This document shows positions 11,230 to 42,401 of a stretch of DNA of 64,000 nucleotides, one piece after another. The notes below the pieces were generated by a model that saw only the letters and a program-made list of their open reading frames with translations, was not told the origin of the DNA and did not search any database. The position numbers and the translations under genes are program-made. Source of the stretch: Deltaproteobacteria bacterium (GTDB taxonomy: Bacteria > Myxococcota_C > UBA6777); assembly GCA_002731275.1 (NCBI GenBank), contig PCBK01000073.1, positions 1 to 64,000 of the forward strand, given 5' to 3'. The first letter of the stretch is position 1. Every line of letters begins with the position of its first letter.

Positions 11230-12918
11230 ATGAAGAGTCAATGGATAGTGTCTGCGTTTCTTGTTATGTGTTGCTTGCAATGGGGTGGGGTGATCTCTTG
11301 TACGCCACCCCCAAAAGACGAACCCACCAAAGAAGCCCCAGCCGAAACATCAGCCGAACCCCAACGCGAATCCGCAAAGGAGACACAACAGGAGGATACG
11401 CCGAAGGAGAGAACTTCTGAAAAGACTGCCGAACCGAACGTTGAGCTGCCTGTTGAGAGCATCGTTGAGCTGCCTGCCGAGCCGAACGCTGATGTCCCTC
11501 ATGAACGAACTCCAAGAGATACATTTGAGCAACAACAAGAACCTATCGCCGACGCTGCCGTCGCCGAACAGCCTCCCGAGCCTGCTACCCCTGAGCCTGC
11601 TACTCCTGAGCCTGTTATCCCTGAGCCTTCTCAGGAGAGGATGACGCCAGATTGGGGGACTCCTGATGATATTCTCCTGGAGAAAGTACAGTCCAATATC
11701 AATTGGGCAAGTTTGCAGTGGCCGCCTTCTGTGACGTTTAAGGAGGGAAAGGCGAGCAGGGCGATTTATGGACAAGTGTACGTGAAGGGGCTGACTGACA
11801 CTGTGAAGGCTGCGCATCCTGGGCTTCGGGCGGAGCTTGGATTTGGACCGTGGGGGACGACGCCACACAGCCATCCGGCGCAATGGAAGTGGGTCAGCGC
11901 TACCTACGTCAAGAACACCGGTCTTGGCAGCAACAACCACGAATACAGCGCGACACTCCCGGCGCAACAAGCTGGTCTGTATCATTACGCCTATCGGTAT
12001 TCTCTGTACAAAGGCCCGTGGCAAGTCGCTGATCGTAGTGATTATGGGCGTAAAGGGACGGACGATGGTGTGACACTTCGTGAGCTGGGTGTAGCTGTGG
12101 TCGTCAAAGTGGGCGCGACATTCAGGATCGGCGCGATGAATTTACATTGTCTGATCGAATCTCCAAACACGCGATTCCAGGCGTTGGCCAAACAGTGGGC
12201 GACATTGCAGTTGGACGTGATTGGCCTACAAGAGGTCTGTGCTCCGAGCGCCGGAGGTGCCGACTCCGCGAAGACACTCGCCACGTTGCTCAAAAAGGCC
12301 GGAGCGGGGACATACCATTCGATCTTTGTGCCGACACACACGGCGACACATGGCGGTGTTTCCTACCAAGAAGGGCTGGGATTGCTCACGAGAGTGCCTG
12401 TCATTGAACACCATCACACACCGCTCCCTGCAACGGGGACACCACCAACAGGCGCGTTCCCACGTAAGATGTTGTGGGCGCGTCTTGCGACACCTGTTGG
12501 CGTCGTATCATTGGGTTCGATCCACCTCTCTTATAGGAGCGACCATGAGAGCTGGCGTGTGAAACAAGTCGATACATTAAAGGATGTATTGTCTTCAAAC
12601 GAGGCGTGGGGGAATGCGCGGATCGTGGTGGGAGATTTTAACGCCAAACAACAAACGACACCCATCACGAATATGGGCAAACAAAACCAACCAACAGGCG
12701 CGATGGCCTTTTCCGATCTGCTGAAGGGATACGATACAGGACTTACATTTCCTGCAAAGAATCCATCTATACGGATTGATTTCTTGTTTATGGCGCAACC
12801 GTCAGCGGCGCTTCCTTTACAAGCGAAGGACGGCAAGCGGCTTTTCTTGAAACCTTTGTCTGGTGGGATCTACCTCTCCGACCATCTCGGCTTGCGAGCA
12901 ACATTAGGTGTCCAGTAG
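11230..12918 (+). CDS. Endonuclease/exonuclease/phosphatase (EEP) family lipoprotein
   Basis: 562 residues. The signal peptide ends VISC, so Cys24 is probably lipidated; an upstream in-frame ATG at 11146 would bury this signal and is rejected. Residues 25-140 are a Pro/Glu-rich stalk (many PEPATPEP-like units) of a kind that holds domains away from a membrane. A beta-rich region follows, then an EEP domain from about residue 300 with GAMNLHC, DVIGLQEVC (catalytic Glu), VGDFNAKQ and a terminal SDHLGL. EEP enzymes cleave phosphodiester or phosphomonoester bonds (DNases, sphingomyelinases, inositol phosphatases); which applies is unknown. Confidence 0.85.
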   Translation: MKSQWIVSAFLVMCCLQWGGVISCTPPPKDEPTKEAPAETSAEPQRESAKETQQEDTPKERTSEKTAEPNVELPVESIVELPAEPNADVPHERTPRDTFEQQQEPIADAAVAEQPPEPATPEPATPEPVIPEPSQERMTPDWGTPDDILLEKVQSNINWASLQWPPSVTFKEGKASRAIYGQVYVKGLTDTVKAAHPGLRAELGFGPWGTTPHSHPAQWKWVSATYVKNTGLGSNNHEYSATLPAQQAGLYHYAYRYSLYKGPWQVADRSDYGRKGTDDGVTLRELGVAVVVKVGATFRIGAMNLHCLIESPNTRFQALAKQWATLQLDVIGLQEVCAPSAGGADSAKTLATLLKKAGAGTYHSIFVPTHTATHGGVSYQEGLGLLTRVPVIEHHHTPLPATGTPPTGAFPRKMLWARLATPVGVVSLGSIHLSYRSDHESWRVKQVDTLKDVLSSNEAWGNARIVVGDFNAKQQTTPITNMGKQNQPTGAMAFSDLLKGYDTGLTFPAKNPSIRIDFLFMAQPSAALPLQAKDGKRLFLKPLSGGIYLSDHLGLRATLGVQ

Positions 12919-19462: not shown

Positions 19463-21511
19463 TCAGGGGATGTAGTTGAGCGCGTCTGTGTGGGGATATT
19501 CTTCTTTAGAGGGCATGCGAAAGGTCAATTGGCCTTGGGGATCGACTCCCGTTGGGATGACCATGATCTCTGCACCCACTTGGAGGTTTGTGTCTTCGCA
19601 GCCCTGAATGGTTCCGATGTGACTTCCGATGCGAAATGAGATGTTCTCTTGTTCGACGCTGAAGACGAGACCGAGGTAAGGTTTGTCTTTGTGAAGGTCG
19701 AGGGTAAGCGCCTTGAGTTGGCTTCGGACGACACGGATGAGGGGTTTTTGTTTTGTCCTGAGCTCTGCCTGTCCATTGCGTTCGATACGAAGTCTGATGG
19801 GCAGGAGGGCTTCGAGTGCTTTGATGTTGCTCCCACCTGGACCGATGACTCTGCCGATCTGTGAGCGTTTGACCTGAAATTGTAGTTGGTGTTCAGCTTG
19901 TTCTGGTTGGACTTCCCGCACACGTGGTGTGGGGAGGCATTCATCCATCTTTGTGAGCAAAGTGTCGAGTCCTGCACGTGCTCGTTCGAGGGCTTGTTGT
20001 AAGAGTGGGATAGGGAGCCCGTGGCACTTCAGGTCGAGCTGTAGCGCTGTGAATCCGCCTTTGTGTCCTGTGACTTTCAGATCCATATCACCGTAAAAAT
20101 CTTCGAGTTCACAGATGTCCGTGAGGAAGAGTGTTTGTTCATCGTCCTGGATCATACCGACGGAGACGCCGGCGATGTGTTGATCGAGGGGGAGGCCTGC
20201 GTCCATCATCGCGAGGCTCGCGCCACAGACCGTCGCCATAGAGGAAGAGCCATCAGAGGAGGTGATGTCCGAGGCGATCCTGAGTGTGTATTGTGCCAAA
20301 AAGCGTTTGGGGAGCGCGTGTAAGAGCGCCTTTCTCGCGAGGTGTCCGTGACCATGTTCGCGAAATCCCGTCGCCTGGAAGGGGTTGGCGTTGTTGACCG
20401 CGAATCCAGGGAAGTTGTAGTGGACGATCAGAGCTTGGCTGTAACGTCCCTGGAGGCTTTGGTGCTCTTGTGAGAGTTTGGCATCCGCGACGACTGCGGT
20501 GACAAGCGCCTGTGTGAGTCCTCTCGCGAAGAACGCAGAGCCTTGTGCCATAGGGAGCATCGTGGTCTCGGCATCCAACGCTCGAAGTTGATCTGCCGCG
20601 CGACCGTCAAGGCGACCATGATCAAGCGTTTGTCGGCGGACAAAGTGCTTGAGTTCGTCCTGGAAGTGCTCTTCGTCGAGTATCGGATCGTCCTCTTTGA
20701 GAGCGTTGTACAATGTGTGACTCTCTTTATAAAACGATCGTTTATCGTACTGTCCCCAATTGTCCATGTGCGCTTGGAGGGCGTCAAAGAGCGAGGTCTT
20801 CGTCGCAGGAAGGGGGGCTTGAGAAGAGGGGGAGGTGAGGTCTCGCTGGAGTTGTGTAAGCAACGGCGTGAGCGCTTCTTGTGCGAACGTACATGATTCG
20901 ATGATTTGCTGTGTGGAGTGGTTGGCGAGGGGGCCATCGAGCATCGTCACACCGTGCTCACTCATGGCGACAAAGAGACCTTGATCTGTAGGCAATTGAT
21001 GACCTGAGAAGGAAGGTTTGTCGAACGTGCATCCTTTTGATGGATGATGAAAGACGCGACATCCTGCGACGAGTGTGTCGACGGGAAGAGGTGAGATGTA
21101 GAGTGTGAGGCCCGCTGCGAGGAGGGCTAGAGCTTCGATGTCAGAGGTGGGATCGGCGCTATAGATGATAATGTGGAGATGGGGATCGCCTTCGTAATGG
21201 CTTGGGAAGGCTGGACGAATGGCACGTGCGATCATGCGTCCGATCAGGATCTCGTGTTCACTTGGACGCGCCTCACGACGAAAGTAATTGCCTGGGATCA
21301 GATCGGCCGCTGATAAACGCTCTCGATACTCAACGGAGAGAGTATTCTGTCCTTTTTTCATGGGCTTATATGGGATCGTCAGCGTCGATAAGATCATGCT
21401 TTTTTTGTGACGGAGAACAAGCGAGGTGTCTGCTTGGGGTGCAAGCCTACCAGTCTCTATACTGATCTCTTGTGTGGCGAGATGTACCTGAATGTGTTGG
21501 GAAATGTCCAT
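19463..21511 (-). CDS. pnp: Polyribonucleotide nucleotidyltransferase (PNPase)
   Basis: 682 residues, the usual PNPase length. Two RNase PH-like domains come first. The second carries DGSSSMATVCGASLAMMDAG and the metal-binding stretch FYGDMDLKVTGHKGG. A KH domain follows (GRVIGPGGSNIKALE from 553), then an S1 domain (about 611-670). The enzyme degrades RNA 3' to 5' by phosphorolysis and acts in mRNA turnover and small-RNA stability in the cytoplasm. The sequence is noticeably divergent around the first RNase PH domain. It is read divergently from the candidate noncoding RNA that begins about 200 bases upstream, an interesting pairing because PNPase commonly handles structured RNAs. Confidence 0.93.
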   Translation of the reverse strand: MDISQHIQVHLATQEISIETGRLAPQADTSLVLRHKKSMILSTLTIPYKPMKKGQNTLSVEYRERLSAADLIPGNYFRREARPSEHEILIGRMIARAIRPAFPSHYEGDPHLHIIIYSADPTSDIEALALLAAGLTLYISPLPVDTLVAGCRVFHHPSKGCTFDKPSFSGHQLPTDQGLFVAMSEHGVTMLDGPLANHSTQQIIESCTFAQEALTPLLTQLQRDLTSPSSQAPLPATKTSLFDALQAHMDNWGQYDKRSFYKESHTLYNALKEDDPILDEEHFQDELKHFVRRQTLDHGRLDGRAADQLRALDAETTMLPMAQGSAFFARGLTQALVTAVVADAKLSQEHQSLQGRYSQALIVHYNFPGFAVNNANPFQATGFREHGHGHLARKALLHALPKRFLAQYTLRIASDITSSDGSSSMATVCGASLAMMDAGLPLDQHIAGVSVGMIQDDEQTLFLTDICELEDFYGDMDLKVTGHKGGFTALQLDLKCHGLPIPLLQQALERARAGLDTLLTKMDECLPTPRVREVQPEQAEHQLQFQVKRSQIGRVIGPGGSNIKALEALLPIRLRIERNGQAELRTKQKPLIRVVRSQLKALTLDLHKDKPYLGLVFSVEQENISFRIGSHIGTIQGCEDTNLQVGAEIMVIPTGVDPQGQLTFRMPSKEEYPHTDALNYIP

Positions 21512-21742
21512 GACGCGGGCCTTTCTATTGCTTCGTAACTTAGCGGAGAGCAGATGTGTTCTTATCTATGAGCAACAAGCACAAGAGGCAAGCTCTTTTT
21601 GGCGTGGATGATAGCCGTGACGTTTCGTCTCACGTGCGTCACATGTGGTCTTTGTGCAAATATACGGTGTCTTTTTTCTTTATATAAATAAGTTGCTTAT
21701 CGGATTCGTTCTGCTGTGTGACGATGGTGTGACGATGTATTC
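21512..21742. other. Region between pnp and the candidate RNA
   Basis: No gene is seen. The region contains an inverted repeat GTGACG (21617-21622) / CGTCAC (21637-21642), an AT-rich stretch with a TATAAA hexamer at 21683-21688, and an 11-bp direct tandem repeat GTGTGACGATG at 21716-21726 and 21727-21737. These are candidates for divergent promoter and operator elements serving pnp and the RNA. I cannot name a good -35 partner. Confidence 0.35.
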
Positions 21743-22190
21743 TTACAACAAAACCATAGTCTGTTTCAAAGCGAACCAAGAAACAGCCCATACGAAAACA
21801 AGCATCCATTGAGACATGCAACAGCTCAATCATTTCGATAAACGATGCTTGAGAAGATCTGACACGATCTTCGGCCCTGATGGTCCCCGAGAAAACCATC
21901 AAGGGTGATACAAAACGCACCAGGGAGACCTGGTGATAGAGGTCCATATCCGGCAACAGGAGGTTATCATGAACACCAAAAAGCAACGAAGTAAACGGGA
22001 GTGATCCTGTGAAATACAGTCTCAACAAACTGTATTTCAATGACCTCCTACGTTGTAAAGTGGATGGGACGTCTCGTTTGGGAGTGGCTTGAGAAACCAC
22101 GTTGAGCAAACGATATCATACGTTTCATAGTTCTCGGTACAGACAACCCCAACCAGAGCTCCTGGTTGGGGTTGGTTGTGTCGTTTTTTT
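21743..22190 (+). ncRNA. Candidate large structured noncoding RNA with terminator
   Basis: About 450 bases without a believable gene but with a consistent, non-clashing set of helices. P1: 21743-49/22052-58 closes a multibranch domain. P2: 21761-67/21780-86. P3: 21799-806/21844-851, containing P3a 21808-13/21825-30. P4: 21853-59/21866-72. P5: 21875-84/21895-905 with one bulge. P6: 21918-24/21929-35 with a GAGA tetraloop. P7: 21958-67/22040-49, flush with the 11-bp P8 22010-20/22029-39. P9: 22075-80/22107-12 with inner 22084-87/22097-100. Two loop pairings fit: P5 loop 21887-93 with 22131-37, and P8 loop 22021-26 with 22101-06. An intrinsic terminator follows. No gene lies downstream on this strand, so a trans-acting RNA is more likely than a leader. 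It matches no class I know (not RNase P, tmRNA, 6S or SRP RNA by motif). The 5' end is undetermined. Confidence 0.7.
22144..22190 (+). terminator. Strong intrinsic terminator of the candidate RNA
   Basis: A perfect 13-bp stem, CAACCCCAACCAG (22144-22156) with CTGGTTGGGGTTG (22162-22174), and a 5-base loop. A T7 run lies at 22184-22190. The T-run is on the plus-strand side only, so it ends rightward transcription and is not the terminator of the minus-strand gene that stops at 22208. Confidence 0.85.
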
Positions 22191-22207
22191 GTTCTCCCCA
22201 CAGCTCT

Positions 22208-23281
22208 TCACTTCTTTTTCTTCTCATCTTTATCATCTTGTTCCAAGACAATCTGTTGTGAGCGGTACATGTGCACAAGCGCTTCTTGTTTGGAAGGTGC
22301 GATCGCCGCAGACGTGATCAACGACGTGACACCTGCGAGCAGCAACGCGCCCCCTGTGATCCACGACGCGAGGGCGGCCTGTCTCCACTGACGACCTTCA
22401 ACAGGGCTGTACTTCTTTTGTTCATCTTGGATCACCCAGGCATCTGATTCGAGATGAAGCCCAACACCAGCCACACCACAGACGACACCCAGCCCAACCC
22501 CGATCCAACCTGCGATGTGAAGACGTTGGCTGACCAGCGCCCTTTGTCGGCGCTCTCGTTGCCATCTGTCGTACATGTTTTGTGCCTTAAATAGGCGTAG
22601 CGCTTGTGTTTTGAACGTTTTCTTCATGGTGAGCTGCATCTTGCGGATCTCTTTCAGGCGCTTGGTCGCCTCCTGATCTTGTTTGGAGAGCTTCACACGA
22701 CGTCGTCGCTTCCACCCTTTGATGAGTCTTTTGAGCCGAAAAACGCGCAGCTTTACGATGGAGAGTCTATTGCGCAGGATCCCCTCCTGACTGAGTGTGT
22801 TGACGAGGGCGAGGGCTTCTTTGGTTTTGAGTCGCTTGCTCAATGAGCGAAAGAGTTTGTTGTACTGTTCTAGGTGAAACAGCCCCTTCGTGAAGTGTGT
22901 CTGTGTGCGTTGGAGTTGTCGCAGATCGTGTTGGATTTCTTGTTTGTCATGATACGCTTCGAGCGCTCGGGAGGGGGGCAGCGCTCCTTTGTTCATAAAG
23001 TATTTGTAACGGAGCAGGTGATACCACAGCACGGCGTTGTCAAAGGAGGGGACACCTGGATGGGGGCCGTAGGTCTTGAGCAGATCTTCGGCCTGGACGA
23101 GTTGCCGTCTCATACTATCAAATCGCCTCGTCGCGAAGTCTTGGCGAGCTTTGCTGAGCAAGCGATTCATCTTGATCACGAAGGAGCGGTCAATGGGTCG
23201 TTTGGCCTGTGACAAGGAAGGCTGGAGTGTCAACACAAACACAACAACCACAAAGAAGCGACAACACTGAAACACAAACAT
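22208..23281 (-). CDS. Hypothetical exported protein with coiled coil and two membrane helices
   Basis: 357 residues, not recognised. An N-terminal signal peptide (FFVVVVFVLTLQPSLSQA) is followed by about 210 residues that are helical and highly charged, rich in Arg/Lys/Leu, and probably coiled coil. Two hydrophobic segments near 250-270 and 305-330 and a Lys/Asp-rich tail end the protein. It lies 144 bases downstream of a Ser/Thr kinase gene on the same strand and may be the last gene of that operon. Proteins of this layout are common next to kinases in this type of genome, but no role is known. Confidence 0.75.
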   Translation of the reverse strand: MFVFQCCRFFVVVVFVLTLQPSLSQAKRPIDRSFVIKMNRLLSKARQDFATRRFDSMRRQLVQAEDLLKTYGPHPGVPSFDNAVLWYHLLRYKYFMNKGALPPSRALEAYHDKQEIQHDLRQLQRTQTHFTKGLFHLEQYNKLFRSLSKRLKTKEALALVNTLSQEGILRNRLSIVKLRVFRLKRLIKGWKRRRRVKLSKQDQEATKRLKEIRKMQLTMKKTFKTQALRLFKAQNMYDRWQRERRQRALVSQRLHIAGWIGVGLGVVCGVAGVGLHLESDAWVIQDEQKKYSPVEGRQWRQAALASWITGGALLLAGVTSLITSAAIAPSKQEALVHMYRSQQIVLEQDDKDEKKKK

Positions 23282-23425: not shown

Positions 23426-24856
23426 TCAAGGCAGTGTGTCTTCGAGACCTGGTCGTCGGACTTGCGGGAAGCGACGGCGAATCGTGCGTCTTCTCTTGAG
23501 AGGTCTGTTTCGTCGTTTGACGGGAGGAGTGTATCGTTTGGTGACGATCTTGCGGCGCTGTGAAGGAGACACTGTTCGTGCTGAGGGGCGTTTCTGTGGA
23601 GGGGGTGTGATGGCTTTGGGTTGTTGTTCCTTTTTGGTCTGGCGCTTTGTCGGTGGGGTCTTTTGTGTCGCGTTGTGTTGTGGTTGTCGTGAGAGAAAAG
23701 ACCACACCCCAAGCAAAACACCGATGATCAACACACCGAACACGACAACATATAGAGGACGCGTTCGGGGGGCAGATGGTGTTTGTGTGGTTGGAGTCTC
23801 GTGGATTGGTTGTGAAGAGGTGACGCGGGCAGGAGGCTCTTCTTCTTTGTCTTCTTCGTGTGGTGTGTTTTTGTCTTCTTTGTCGAACTGGACAAGAGGA
23901 GAGTAAATCTGGAAGACTGGCGGGACCTGTGTTTGCCGCGCATCATCCCGCGCTTGCGAGAAGATCTCACCTGTCGGTAAACCATAATGTGGCAAGGCTT
24001 TGTGAGCGTCTGTGGCGTCCTCGAAGCGATCTTCTGGATCTTTCTCTGTGATCTCTTCGGCCCAATCGTTGATCGCCTCAGCGAGCGCCCTGTCAACATC
24101 TTCAAAGCGTTCCTGTAAGACGTCGACGAGATCGGGCATTGGATTGTGCAGGTGTTGGAACATCAACTGATGAGGTGTGCCGATGAAGGGCAACTCTCCT
24201 GCGAGTAATTCATATGCGAGAATACCGATCTGATAGAGGTCTGTGCGTTCATCGATATCGTCTCCACGCCACATCTCCGGTGGCATGTAGCCGGGGGAAC
24301 CGAGGACCGTTCCTGTTTGTGTTTCGACGGTCAAACTCGTCAGATCCAGCTCGGAAAACCAACGAGCGATCCCAAAGTCGATGATCTTCAGTTGGAGCGG
24401 TTTGGTCTCAGGTAAACACAGAATGTTGGAGGGCTTAAGATCCCTGTGGACGAGCTTCTCTTGGTGGACAGCTTGTAAGCCCAGCAAGAGCTCGCGCAAG
24501 ATATGAAGGAGCGATTCGACGGAGGGATTGTGTTGCTCGGCGTATTCTTTGAGGGTGATACAGTGGGGGAGCAGCTCCATAGTGTAGTAGACACCGAGCT
24601 GTTCGTCTCGGCCTGCGTCGAACAGGCGGATAATCCGCGAATCATTGACGAGGCGGAGAGCGTTGATCTCGCGCTGCATCCGCTTCTCTAATTCTTTGAT
24701 ATGTGTCGCGTCTTCAGGGAATTTGAGCAGCTTGAGCGCGACGAGGTCTTCTTGTTGTGTGTCGTAGGCTTCAAAGACGTTGCCCATCCCACCTTTCCCT
24801 ACAAGTTGACGAAGCTGGTAACGTCCTGCGACGGTCTGGTTGCGCACATCTGTCAT
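23426..24856 (-). CDS. Membrane-anchored Ser/Thr protein kinase
   Basis: 476 residues. The start ATG overlaps the stop of the upstream regulator gene (ATGA); a longer frame inside that gene is rejected. The kinase domain covers about 12-290: GKGGMGNV 20-27, Lys42, HRDLKPSN from 137, DFG 160-162 and PPE 192-194, all needed residues being present. A Pro/Glu linker leads to one transmembrane helix (about 368-388). A strongly basic extracytoplasmic tail of about 85 residues follows, rich in Arg/Lys/Pro (KRRNRPLKRRRTIRRR), which might bind wall polymers or nucleic acid outside the cell. Coupling to the BTAD/AAA/TPR regulator suggests that the kinase and regulator work together. Confidence 0.88.
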   Translation of the reverse strand: MTDVRNQTVAGRYQLRQLVGKGGMGNVFEAYDTQQEDLVALKLLKFPEDATHIKELEKRMQREINALRLVNDSRIIRLFDAGRDEQLGVYYTMELLPHCITLKEYAEQHNPSVESLLHILRELLLGLQAVHQEKLVHRDLKPSNILCLPETKPLQLKIIDFGIARWFSELDLTSLTVETQTGTVLGSPGYMPPEMWRGDDIDERTDLYQIGILAYELLAGELPFIGTPHQLMFQHLHNPMPDLVDVLQERFEDVDRALAEAINDWAEEITEKDPEDRFEDATDAHKALPHYGLPTGEIFSQARDDARQTQVPPVFQIYSPLVQFDKEDKNTPHEEDKEEEPPARVTSSQPIHETPTTQTPSAPRTRPLYVVVFGVLIIGVLLGVWSFLSRQPQHNATQKTPPTKRQTKKEQQPKAITPPPQKRPSARTVSPSQRRKIVTKRYTPPVKRRNRPLKRRRTIRRRFPQVRRPGLEDTLP

Positions 24857-27800
24857 GACAGCTCTTGTCTCTTCTCTTTTGGGAGGAGTTTTTTGGCCCG
24901 CTTGAGCAGTGAACGAGACTTTGGTGCTCTCATTTGCTTGGGAAGTGCGGGCAAATCGAGTGGTGTCGTCTGGAGCAGGGTGTGGACAAAGTGATAGGGG
25001 AGCGTGGAGGGGGGTGTGTACTTTGTGCCCGACATGGTGATCTGTTCGAGCGCTGTCTGAGCGTCTTGGGGACGATTGAGGGCTGTGTAGATGTGCCTCA
25101 TCGTGTCGTATTGTAGCAGCCTCTCTGTCGGCGTTGCGTCGGAGAAGGTGTGTTCGAGTGAAGTGATGATCTCGTCTGTATCGGGTGTTGGGGTAGAGGT
25201 CATGGCAAGCTCTGCCTGGAGACATGCTGTCCAGAGGGAGAGGTCACGTGCCTGGAGAGATGTTGTGTTGAGCTTGATGCACTCGGACAATGGTGTATTG
25301 GGATCAGGCAAGCCTTGTCTGTGTCGACGCCAGGCCTGGATGTAGAGCCCTTCTGCTTGTTGGTAAAACAGGCCGTGTTCTGTACACAGTATCTGCGCGA
25401 GTGAAAAGAACGCGTCGAAGTCGTCATCGAGCTGTTGTCGGGCTTGGAGAGAGAGCATTTCGTTGAGCGCATCGACGACGAGGTCGGGGGATTTGAGGTC
25501 GAGTCCCATGGAGAGTTTGTAGGCGAAGCAGGTGTAAGCCTGTGGGAGGGCACCGAGCTGACAGTAAAGTTGTCCGATATTTCCGGCGGCTTTGCAGATC
25601 CCTGGGATGCTGAATTGGCGTGTCGCGAGGGCGAAGTGTTGTTGAAGAAAGTCGAGGGCGCGTTCGACATTGCCCATCCAAACGTGCCACTTACTGAGAT
25701 GTTCGAGTCCACGGCGCAGGCGAGCTTCTTCACCAGCTTCATCGAGCCACATCATCTGCTCTTCAAAGTACTGAAGGGCTTCGATGTACTTATCTTGCTC
25801 GTTGGCAAAGAAGCCGGAGGAGCCCATAATCCGACTGATCGTGAATTGACTTTCGTCACCAAAGGACAGCTGCTCTTCTTCGTGCAGGAGCTGTTCTTCT
25901 TCGTCGATGGCGAGCTGAAGGGTCTTTTCAAACGTCTCCAGTGCGCGCTCAAAGGCACCTTGTTGGATGTAGATGCTGCCGAGCGCGGCGTAGCCTTCTG
26001 AGAGATAGCGGTTGTTGCTGAGTTGTTGCGCGAGGTCGATCTTCTGTTGGCTGTATTGGAGCGCGCTGTCGAACAGACCTTCTTGTCGGTCACTTTTGAT
26101 CAGGCTGTTGAGCACCTGGATCTCCAGATCGTGAAGGTCTTTGCTTTGGGCAAAGTGTAGAGCTTTTCGCAGCCAACGGCGGGCGGAGCTGTGTTCTCCT
26201 TGGCGTCTGTACAGGCGACCATTGGCGAGTGTGCTCAAGAGGATATGTTCATCATCTCGCAGTGAGCGGGCTTGTGAGGCGTATTCTTTGAGTAGGGGTT
26301 GGGCAAGTGTGAATTGTCGCTGTGCCATGTAGATCTCTGCCAGATCCTTGTAAAAGGGCAGCGCGGCTGTGGTCCCTTTGCAAATGAATAGACCTCGCTT
26401 AAGCCATTGGATCGCCTCTTCGTAGGCTTTTTGTGTGCGGGCTGTGTCGATCACGAGCTGGAGGTAGGTGCGCTCTTTCTCTGTGTCACCGGCATAGCGC
26501 CAATGGTGTGCGAGTTGTGTGGGATGCCCTTTGGTTTGTTCGAGGGCGAGGGCGATACGTTTGTGGAGAAGTTGCTTTCGTACAGGGCTGATCTGTTCAC
26601 GTAAGGTGTGTTGAAGCAGGATGTGGCGGAATCCGTAGGTCCTGTTGGAGGGTTGTCCGTGGGATAGGAGCAGATGTTTTTGAAGCCCACGCTCGACAGC
26701 GCGCATGACATCTTCTTCGCTGAGCTGACTTGCGCGCTGAAGCTGTGTGAAGTGAACGGGGTGTGCAAAGAGGGCGATACATTCGATACATTGTCGGTGG
26801 GCTTGTGGGAATGTATCGAGCGCTTGTTGGAGTACGGACTGGATTTTTTCGGAGACAGGGACAAAGTCATTGGGTTGGGAGGGGTCCCATTGTTCGAGGT
26901 ATTCTTGTGTGTAGAGCGCGTTGCCTTTGGTGTAGGTGAGGATCTTGTCACAGAGCGCTGTGTGTTCATCTTGTTGGAGGGCTGGAAAGGATGACTGGAG
27001 CGCAGGGAGCAGGTCATCTTGTGTGAGTGGTGGGAGCTTGATGAGTTGAATCTGTTCGTCTGTGCGGGACTTTTGTTTGATATTTTGCAACAAGGGGTGG
27101 GTGTCTTCGTCTCTCATGCACCCGATGAGCAGGCTTCCATGTGGTTGATTGGCGGGGTGATTGAGCAGGAAGTCGAACAATTCGAGGCTGGCTTCATCGG
27201 CCCAGTGGAGGTCATCGAGAAAGATCACGATGGGGCGACCTTCTTTTGAGGTCAGGAGTGTGGAGAGGGCGGTGAAGAAGCGGTAGGTGTCTTCTGGTGT
27301 GTGTGGGAGGGGTTGAGGTGGCTGATCGACGTGTTGCATTCCCCATTGTGGGAAGAGTCGGATGACTTGTTCGAGGACAAATGAGTGGGAGGTGCCCGTC
27401 TGTACAAGAAGATCATCGAGTAAGGGACGTAGCAATCGGCTCCAGACCATGTAGGGAAGCTGTTGGTCACCTGGTTGGCAACGCTCTTCGAGCAGGTCGG
27501 GTGAGTGATGTGTCGTGAACTCTCGAACCAGCGCGGTCTTGCCGTTGCCTGATTCCGCTTCGATCAGGACACAGTGGTGTTGTCCTTGCTGTGTTTGTTG
27601 CCAGCGTTCGAGGAGTTGTTGTTGTTGCGTTGCGCGGCCGAGGAGTGTCGTTGTTGGCGTGGCTGCCTGTGTCTTGGGTTGTGTCGTGCCGAGGAATGAG
27701 GTGTAAGTGGGGCTGAAGTCACCTTCGAGCACTTGTTGATAGAGTTCTTCTGTTTCGTCGGTCAGCTCGATGTCGAGTTGTTCTTGTCTGAGTTGTTTGC

Positions 27801-28440
27801 ACAACTCGTATTGTTGGATTGCGGCGTCACGTTGGCCATTTCGAGCGTAAAGCCACATCAAGAGGCTGTGTATCTCTTCTCTGAGGGGGTCCAATTCGAG
27901 GATTCGTTGTGACCACTTGATGGCCTCTGTGTGGTGTGCTTGCTCGACGAGTTGTTGGATGAGGATTTTTGTGCCTTTTTCGTAGAGGAGCGCGAGTCGG
28001 CTCCGTTCACCGGAGAGCCAGATCTCGAAGTGCGGGGCTTGTTTGAGGTTAAAGCCCTTGAGAAATTCGCCTTGATAGAGTTCGAGTGCGGTTTGAAGTT
28101 GTGCGGTGGTACGTTGTTCGAGATCTGTGGAGAGTGTGTGTTCAAATTGATGGATATCGGTGTGTTCTCGTGGGTATTGGATGGAGAGTCGAGGGCCGTC
28201 AGCGTGGAGGAATTCTTTTCCGAGATCTTTGCGGATGCGGCTGAGGTGCCAGCGGAGGGAGGCGGCGCGGTCATCGGTTTCGGAGCAGAACAGCTCAGCG
28301 AGCACTTGCCTGGGCTGTGGACGGGCATTGCAGGCGAGGTATGCGACCATCGCGAGGGTCTTACCGCGAAGTTTCGATGATGCAGGCGCGTTGTCTTCGA
28401 GGATCTCGAAGTGTCCAAAAAAGCGGAATGAATAACTCAT
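24853..28440 (-). CDS. BTAD-domain transcriptional regulator with AAA ATPase and TPR repeats
   Basis: 1195 residues. An N-terminal winged-helix/OmpR-like part (1-90) is followed by a bacterial transcriptional activator domain (about 95-240). The AAA/NACHT-like ATPase has Walker A AESGNGKT (295-302) and Walker B IVIFLDD (404-410). From about 650 to the end are tetratricopeptide repeats (for example GYAALGSIYIQQGAFERAL). This is the SARP/AfsR-like or MalT-like plan, in which the ATPase and TPR part senses a signal and controls DNA binding. It heads an operon with a Ser/Thr kinase (4-bp overlap), the same pairing logic as AfsR with AfsK in Streptomyces. Targets are unknown. Confidence 0.87.
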   Translation of the reverse strand: MSYSFRFFGHFEILEDNAPASSKLRGKTLAMVAYLACNARPQPRQVLAELFCSETDDRAASLRWHLSRIRKDLGKEFLHADGPRLSIQYPREHTDIHQFEHTLSTDLEQRTTAQLQTALELYQGEFLKGFNLKQAPHFEIWLSGERSRLALLYEKGTKILIQQLVEQAHHTEAIKWSQRILELDPLREEIHSLLMWLYARNGQRDAAIQQYELCKQLRQEQLDIELTDETEELYQQVLEGDFSPTYTSFLGTTQPKTQAATPTTTLLGRATQQQQLLERWQQTQQGQHHCVLIEAESGNGKTALVREFTTHHSPDLLEERCQPGDQQLPYMVWSRLLRPLLDDLLVQTGTSHSFVLEQVIRLFPQWGMQHVDQPPQPLPHTPEDTYRFFTALSTLLTSKEGRPIVIFLDDLHWADEASLELFDFLLNHPANQPHGSLLIGCMRDEDTHPLLQNIKQKSRTDEQIQLIKLPPLTQDDLLPALQSSFPALQQDEHTALCDKILTYTKGNALYTQEYLEQWDPSQPNDFVPVSEKIQSVLQQALDTFPQAHRQCIECIALFAHPVHFTQLQRASQLSEEDVMRAVERGLQKHLLLSHGQPSNRTYGFRHILLQHTLREQISPVRKQLLHKRIALALEQTKGHPTQLAHHWRYAGDTEKERTYLQLVIDTARTQKAYEEAIQWLKRGLFICKGTTAALPFYKDLAEIYMAQRQFTLAQPLLKEYASQARSLRDDEHILLSTLANGRLYRRQGEHSSARRWLRKALHFAQSKDLHDLEIQVLNSLIKSDRQEGLFDSALQYSQQKIDLAQQLSNNRYLSEGYAALGSIYIQQGAFERALETFEKTLQLAIDEEEQLLHEEEQLSFGDESQFTISRIMGSSGFFANEQDKYIEALQYFEEQMMWLDEAGEEARLRRGLEHLSKWHVWMGNVERALDFLQQHFALATRQFSIPGICKAAGNIGQLYCQLGALPQAYTCFAYKLSMGLDLKSPDLVVDALNEMLSLQARQQLDDDFDAFFSLAQILCTEHGLFYQQAEGLYIQAWRRHRQGLPDPNTPLSECIKLNTTSLQARDLSLWTACLQAELAMTSTPTPDTDEIITSLEHTFSDATPTERLLQYDTMRHIYTALNRPQDAQTALEQITMSGTKYTPPSTLPYHFVHTLLQTTPLDLPALPKQMRAPKSRSLLKRAKKLLPKEKRQELS

Positions 28441-42232: not shown

Positions 42233-42279
42233 CGTTGACTCCTCCCTTATATCATGTGCTGAATCCATGCTTTGACTTT

Positions 42280-42302
42280 AACGTGCATTCTTAATGCATC
42301 TT
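42280..42302. promoter_or_regulatory. NsrR box 1
   Basis: A 23-bp imperfect palindrome whose halves read AACGTGCATTC and AATGCATCTT around TT. It is very close to the NsrR consensus built on ATGCATTT/AAATGCAT. It lies about 50-70 bases before the globin start. Confidence 0.8.
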
Positions 42303-42312
42303 TTGCATGGTT

Positions 42313-42335
42313 AATATGTATTTAAAATGCATGTT
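42313..42335. promoter_or_regulatory. NsrR box 2
   Basis: A second 23-bp site with halves AATATGTATTT and AATGCATGTT, centred 33 bp (about three helical turns) from box 1. The two sites are themselves arranged as a larger inverted repeat, each flanked on its outer side by TTGACTTTAAC (one per strand). The minus-strand TTGACT can serve as the -35 of the globin operon, so repressor on these sites would cover the promoter. Confidence 0.78.
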
Positions 42336-42401
42336 AAAGTCAAGTTTCTTTTTTGGAGGAGTGCGTATGTCTTTGTTTTTTATGGTGTTGTTTGGGGGGG
42401 C

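Follow-up and report, generated by a model that had tools for sequence, protein, structure and literature searches.

Homo-oligomeric assembly is a feature of the large non-coding RNA classes OLE, ROOL and GOLLD. OLE RNA is about 600 nt in length (PMC9723947), the ROOL RNA env-120 has 659 nt, and GOLLD more than 800 nt (PMC12286853). The original prediction for the locus considered here, positions 21743-22190 on the plus strand of the window (that is, the whole 64,000-nt stretch of DNA that was analysed), was of a candidate RNA whose size and complexity are in the range of these rare classes. The comparison is one of general size and look only: the candidate, like OLE, ROOL and GOLLD, is long, densely paired and non-coding, with no obvious target gene after it. 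However, it is smaller, at about 440 nt, it matches no Rfam covariance model, and neither whole-RNA covariation nor a conserved set of representatives was found for it; where the known classes are recognized by covariation-supported structure over many representatives, here one arm has a second copy. In phages, moreover, tRNA islands are frequent neighbors of ROOL and GOLLD, whereas the candidate's window is without tRNA.

Another comparison is with the rare candidates of the GC-IGR pipeline, among them the smtA motif ("Soda Lake RNA"), for which strong covariation in multiple stems is reported (PMC11109978). Like smtA and others of its kind, our candidate is longer than 350 nt, has a complex fold, is restricted to one narrow lineage and lies in an intergenic region beside divergent genes (PMC11109978). 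Unlike smtA, it has two representatives, and those of one arm. Candidates graded "unnamed" or "low-ranking" in that pipeline usually have fewer than five representatives, and this one would fall in one of these grades until more representatives are found (PMC11109978).

The best-supported reading of 21743-22190 is a stand-alone, terminated, non-coding structured RNA that is lineage-restricted and divergent from the neighboring gene pnp2. This reading is based on a strand-specific fold excess, GNRA loops and a terminator, together with the absence of a coding signal, of a downstream plus-strand gene and of an Rfam match. The element is clearly non-random and most likely an RNA gene, and we judge it probable, if well short of certain, that a real structured RNA gene lies on the plus strand.

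The locus, its flanking genes and known RNA classes

The candidate lies in a 696-bp gap between two minus-strand genes, namely pnp2 (19463-21511), which is transcribed away from it, and a gene at 22208-23281. A strong plus-strand terminator had been predicted at its end, and is indeed found, by z-score (-5.6), fold and sequence, as a rho-independent terminator at 22135-22190, in which a 13-bp GC-rich stem in the outer helix is followed by GTTTTTTT and which finishes in seven T; a simple consensus terminator scan does not list it. The next gene after the RNA, 22208-23281, is on the minus strand, so that no plus-strand gene comes after it, as foreseen, and since the terminator is followed by no co-directional gene directly 3′, an mRNA leader or riboswitch can be set aside. 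The product of 22208-23281, of unknown family, has a signal-like N-terminus and six further relatives in the same genome, and there are some relatives in each of the four same-family genomes as well. Elsewhere in the window, at 42272-42343, an AT-rich inverted repeat with 31-nt arms (84% complementary) and a 10-nt loop lies between long frames.

On the other side of the candidate, at 21716-21737 (plus), a repeat search found two perfect 11-bp direct repeats, (GTGTGACGATG)x2, which make up a candidate activator site. A possible -10 element, TATTCT, was picked out by eye directly 3′ of the repeats at 21738-21743 (plus), and is not among the predictions of a promoter scan. Winged-helix activators, both OmpR/PhoB-like and SARP-like, typically have 11-bp direct repeats at -35 as their sites, and a SARP-type BTAD domain is encoded within the window, in the gene at 24853-28440. 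A near-copy of the repeats, with 2 mismatches, occurs once more in the genome (G000:C61:8279-8300; the reversed-pattern control gave 0), upstream of a gene that was judged by eye to be receiver-like. Together, the two sites might represent a small regulon of a tandem-binding activator.

The claim that the interval holds no believable gene is borne out, in that none of its reading frames has gene-like codon use. The longest frame, of 156 codons on the minus strand, scores 0.00 bits per codon, compared with 0.22-0.45 for the genes of the window, an absence of coding signal that is to be expected of a stand-alone non-coding RNA; the small plus-strand frames likewise give no codon-use signal. A possible 11-codon frame, MNTKKQRSKRE, at 21969-22004 (plus), stands after an AGGAGG that is paired in the long arm; codon use is uninformative at such a length, and the frame is probably incidental. 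With regard to known RNAs, the proposed Rfam scan (4227 models, gathering score) gave no match in the window, and at E<=10 the region 21500-22300 gave chance matches only, mostly to eukaryotic families and none to OLE, ROOL or GOLLD, so that no known class is matched. RNase P RNA and tmRNA were rightly excluded at the outset, as both genes were placed elsewhere in the genome, far above threshold. RNase P RNA, for which there is normally one gene per genome, is at C157:37215-37664 (RF00010, 240.5 bits), and tmRNA, of which none was found in the window, is at C3:567963-568295 (RF00023, 150.5 bits). A SAM-I-like CCGGCAAC receives no support from Rfam.

Fold strength, strand and helix architecture

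Measured against dinucleotide shuffles, the plus strand of 21735-22192 folds at -164.7 kcal/mol, compared with -115.6 for the average shuffle (z -8.2; 0/100 shuffles as low), and still reaches z -6.4 when the terminator is left out. The minus strand gives a weaker z of -5.2, and part of its excess is what any paired sequence passes to its complement; strand-specific structure beyond chance, at -8.2 versus -5.2, is again what a stand-alone non-coding RNA should have. The two domains 21797-21937 and 21937-22075 have z-scores of -6.9 and -6.4 on the plus strand and about -3.5 on the minus, and the stretch 22075-22135 is without significant structure (z +0.35). When both strands of the 64 kb were scanned in 200-nt pieces, the piece from 21841 (plus) ranked 2 of 638; the top of the same scan is 12441-12640 (plus, z -6.0), which falls within an open frame that encodes an Exo_endo_phos domain. 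GNRA tetraloops, GAGA and GTGA, cap two plus-strand stems (two such hairpins have P = 0.001 in shuffles), and no GNRA-capped hairpin was found on the minus strand of the interval, which favors plus as the working strand. The long arm folds at -34.1 on the plus strand versus -23.3 on the minus.

Each helix named in the original prediction is present at its place, among them P1 (TTACAAC 21743-49 / GTTGTAA 22052-58) and P7 (AGGAGGTTAT 21958-67 / ATGACCTCCT 22040-49), but not all are compatible in the best fold. The casualty is P1, which had been taken to close the domain: it is absent from the best full-length fold, where 22052-56 pairs with 21953-57 and so lengthens the P7 arm. Only in an RNA cut at 22062 does P1 form (p 0.81); on this folding model, it could be transient during transcription. 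In the full-length fold, it is the pairing of 21787-21795 with 22074-22082 that closes the multi-branch domain, with pair probabilities mostly > 0.85 (0.87-0.99 on the 5′ side). From 5′ to 3′, the order is a hairpin, the closing helix, four hairpins, the long arm, a pair of weak hairpins toward the 3′ end and, last, the terminator. The 5′ hairpin is CTGTTTC/GAAACAG at 21761-21786 (pair probability 0.97). The four hairpins are CAAGCATC/GATGCTTG, with a large loop, at 21799-21851 (0.99); GAAGATC/GATCTTC at 21853-21872 (1.0); GCCCTGATGGT/ACCATC.AGGGT at 21874-21906 (0.88-0.98); and CACCAGG-GAGA-CCTGGTG, with the first of the GNRA tetraloops, at 21918-21935 (1.0). The long arm, as defined by fold and sequence comparison, has its 5′ side at 21939-21967 and its 3′ side at 22040-22073, all on the plus strand. 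Its 72-nt loop holds two more hairpins, ACGGGA-GTGA-TCCTGT at 21995-22010 (0.95), with the other GNRA tetraloop, and P8 at 22011-22038 (1.0), which has 10 perfect pairs (GAAATACAGT 22011-20/ACTGTATTTC 22029-38) and a possible 11th, the flanking A-T 22010-22039.

A second copy of the long arm

The genome to which the window belongs (G000; 10.75 Mb in 200 contigs) was compared with four same-family genomes and with none of intermediate kinship. Neither DNA search nor two domain models found a whole-RNA copy in these four genomes, and DNA search of relatives, phages and plasmids returned a terminator-tail match only. The arm model R1 gave a weak match (E=0.45) to a second arm copy in the same genome, at G000:C154:37453-37525. 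The 5′ side of this copy is identical at 21/22 positions, AGAGGTCCAT[A/C]TCCGGCAACAG, with AGAGGTCCATnTCCGGCAACAG common to both copies, and its 3′ side is CTA[C/T]GTTGTA, with CTAnGTTGTA in common. The C154 copy is without 66 nt of the loop, and the Shine-Dalgarno sequence and ATG of the 11-codon frame are missing from it. A 5′ strand match of this quality is by itself expected about 0.4 times per genome (a BLAST value scaled to genome length), and the 3′ strand match is equalled by 0.17% of random genome segments (P=0.0017), so that both strands would be expected to match by chance roughly one time in a thousand. In the arm, 89% of the pair cells are kept between the two copies, versus 33-51% with the strands slid. 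There are 3 two-sided pair changes, from two sequences of which one supplied the structure, and 70/500 letter shuffles match the arm's pair conservation, which is that of two copies in one genome. Homologs with covarying helices had been proposed as a check; whole-length homologs were not found in the genome, phage, plasmid and viral-contig searches, and the covariation is that of two copies of one arm.

The C154 look-alike (L119; L123:9454-9526, minus strand) is located between a kinase/AAA/TPR gene and a gene for a Cys-rich protein. In its hairpin loop, GGCTTTTCTC can pair with GAGAAAAGCC, just 5′ of nine T on the other strand, in an arrangement that resembles an attenuator or two-way terminator. 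Several other candidates were rejected. Model R2, for the four-hairpin domain, gave weak matches in two same-family genomes, G002 and G001, and the one in G002 is inside a kinase gene, with helices broken. The retrained arm model R3, as sole model and with stricter filters, gave nothing credible in 386 genomes, and in the same-family genomes nothing else credible beyond the known arm copies; its equal weak matches in G004 and G002 represent one terminator-like hairpin 5′ of a tRNA gene. An exact-pattern search of viral contigs found no homolog, the arm-motif matches there being attributable to chance: they are in apparent phage coding sequence, are alike among themselves and have no model match. 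A coding origin for the motif that the two arms share (LLLPxMDL on the minus strand, RGPxPAT on the plus) was also discarded, as the frame, when read by eye, is lost on the 3′ strand and codon use carries no signal.

Competing readings and the relation to pnp2

The element was originally described as lying beside pnp, and it does adjoin a PNPase gene, but that gene encodes a second, divergent PNPase (NF008805, E 9e-144). Pnp2 keeps the GDMDLKV and SSS motifs, has no S1 domain match, and is 32-38% identical to the other PNPase of the genome (G000:C119:52082-54133). Two PNPases are also present in G001 and G003; an rpsO-like gene precedes a PNPase gene in G003 and G004, which is the canonical arrangement, and the rpsO-linked pnp is a gene other than pnp2. 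A search of the genome contigs with the Pnp2 protein gave a best identity of 34% and no close relative. Directly upstream of the nearest pnp2 relatives by sequence (G003, G001) there is other sequence and the RNA is absent. The neighborhood thus gives no conserved link, and the association of the RNA with pnp is positional, not conserved. There are, in addition, two local resemblances. The segment GGTTATCATGAACACCAAAAAG at 21962-21983 (plus), which lies in and beside the arm loop, for the most part in the open loop, is identical at 18/22 positions to the pnp2 leader segment GGCTATCATCCACGCCAAAAAG at 21595-21616 (minus); nowhere else in the window does it have a close copy. In addition, TGTGACGCACGTGAGACGA at 21625-21643 (minus), facing pnp2, is a look-alike of the 11-bp repeats (15/19 identical). 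These levels were reached by 0/300 shuffle pairs and 0/500 shuffles, respectively, counts that overstate the resemblances, both having been noticed after looking. The leader-like segment is missing from the C154 arm copy and is therefore not the reason that the arm itself is conserved.

The structure might be thought to work on the minus strand, either as a long pnp2 leader or as the 3′-terminal part of the transcript of 22208-23281. Some PNPase mRNAs do regulate themselves through leader structure, pnp2 and its upstream neighbor are both on the minus strand, and the minus-strand fold, too, beats chance. Nevertheless, the sole predicted promoter-like site for pnp2, 21688-21659, is downstream of the structure, and a leader begun there would exclude it; the plus strand gives better scores for both domains and for the terminator, it alone has the GNRA loops, and the arm is stronger on it; and the pnp2 relatives in G003 and G001 are without such a leader. 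A minus-strand role is, on balance, distinctly unlikely. Quite improbable is a translated messenger, that is, a structured micro-peptide mRNA with its ribosome site locked in the arm, in the manner of a dual-function or type I toxin-like RNA. An AGGAGG-5nt-ATG at 21958-21971 does open the 11-codon frame, and 4 nt after that frame comes a 27-codon GTG frame behind GGGAG, but gene-like codon use is absent, the frames are very short and overlap perfect hairpins, and neither the ribosome site nor the ATG is in the C154 copy.

A decayed or selfish DNA element, such as a hairpin repeat or an old mobile-element remnant, or else a functionless run of hairpins, would accord with a single whole copy that related genomes do not have. 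It would also accord with the one partial copy, which lies in an intergenic region of no relation to this one, as would be expected of a scattered repeat; the C154 hairpin, moreover, is flanked by A and T runs in the manner of a two-way terminator. Set against this are the low copy number, the arm occurring just twice and the remainder once in 10.75 Mb, the undecayed look of the perfect stems, GNRA loops and intact terminator, and the fact that long flanking repeats were not found in the interval. We consider this explanation unlikely.

If the preferred reading, a structured RNA gene on the plus strand, is adopted, a stable untranslated RNA of about 440 nt would be made divergently from pnp2, with transcription starting near 21750 and stopped by its own terminator. 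An activator may bind the two 11-bp repeats, and a similar site faces pnp2. The long arm could serve as a module that binds a partner, either protein or RNA. To judge from the one similarity to the pnp2 leader, the open loop of the arm might compete with pnp2 mRNA for that partner, in which case the RNA would be a decoy that tunes pnp2 and perhaps other transcripts. This decoy step, suggested by sequence resemblance, is doubtful. In its possible way of working only, the candidate would be like bacterial decoy or sponge RNAs, in that it repeats a target sequence in an open loop and lies beside the promoter of that target; unlike them, it has one motif copy rather than many. In the same restricted sense, it might be likened to the Deinococcus Y RNA with Ro and PNPase, as a structured RNA linked in thought to PNPase. 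Y RNAs, however, are far smaller than ~440 nt and act with Ro protein, and in the present case there is no Rfam Y RNA match and the proximity to pnp2 is not conserved. Just as tentative is the fuller proposal of a new class of ~440-nt RNA confined to an isolated lineage, with stems capped by GNRA loops and a probable tertiary fold, that would share an 11-bp-repeat activator with the second PNPase, act via the leader resemblance and have its arm reused elsewhere.

If transcribed, the element would be an additional structured RNA of considerable size in a lineage that has large genomes and almost no sequenced relatives. In such a lineage, RNA classes cannot be found by comparison and all evidence has to come from a single genome, and the locus is a fair test of fold statistics alone as a means of identifying RNA genes. 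The arrangement with pnp2 would, again if the RNA is transcribed, permit a direct test of an RNA tuning a neighboring RNA-degrading enzyme.
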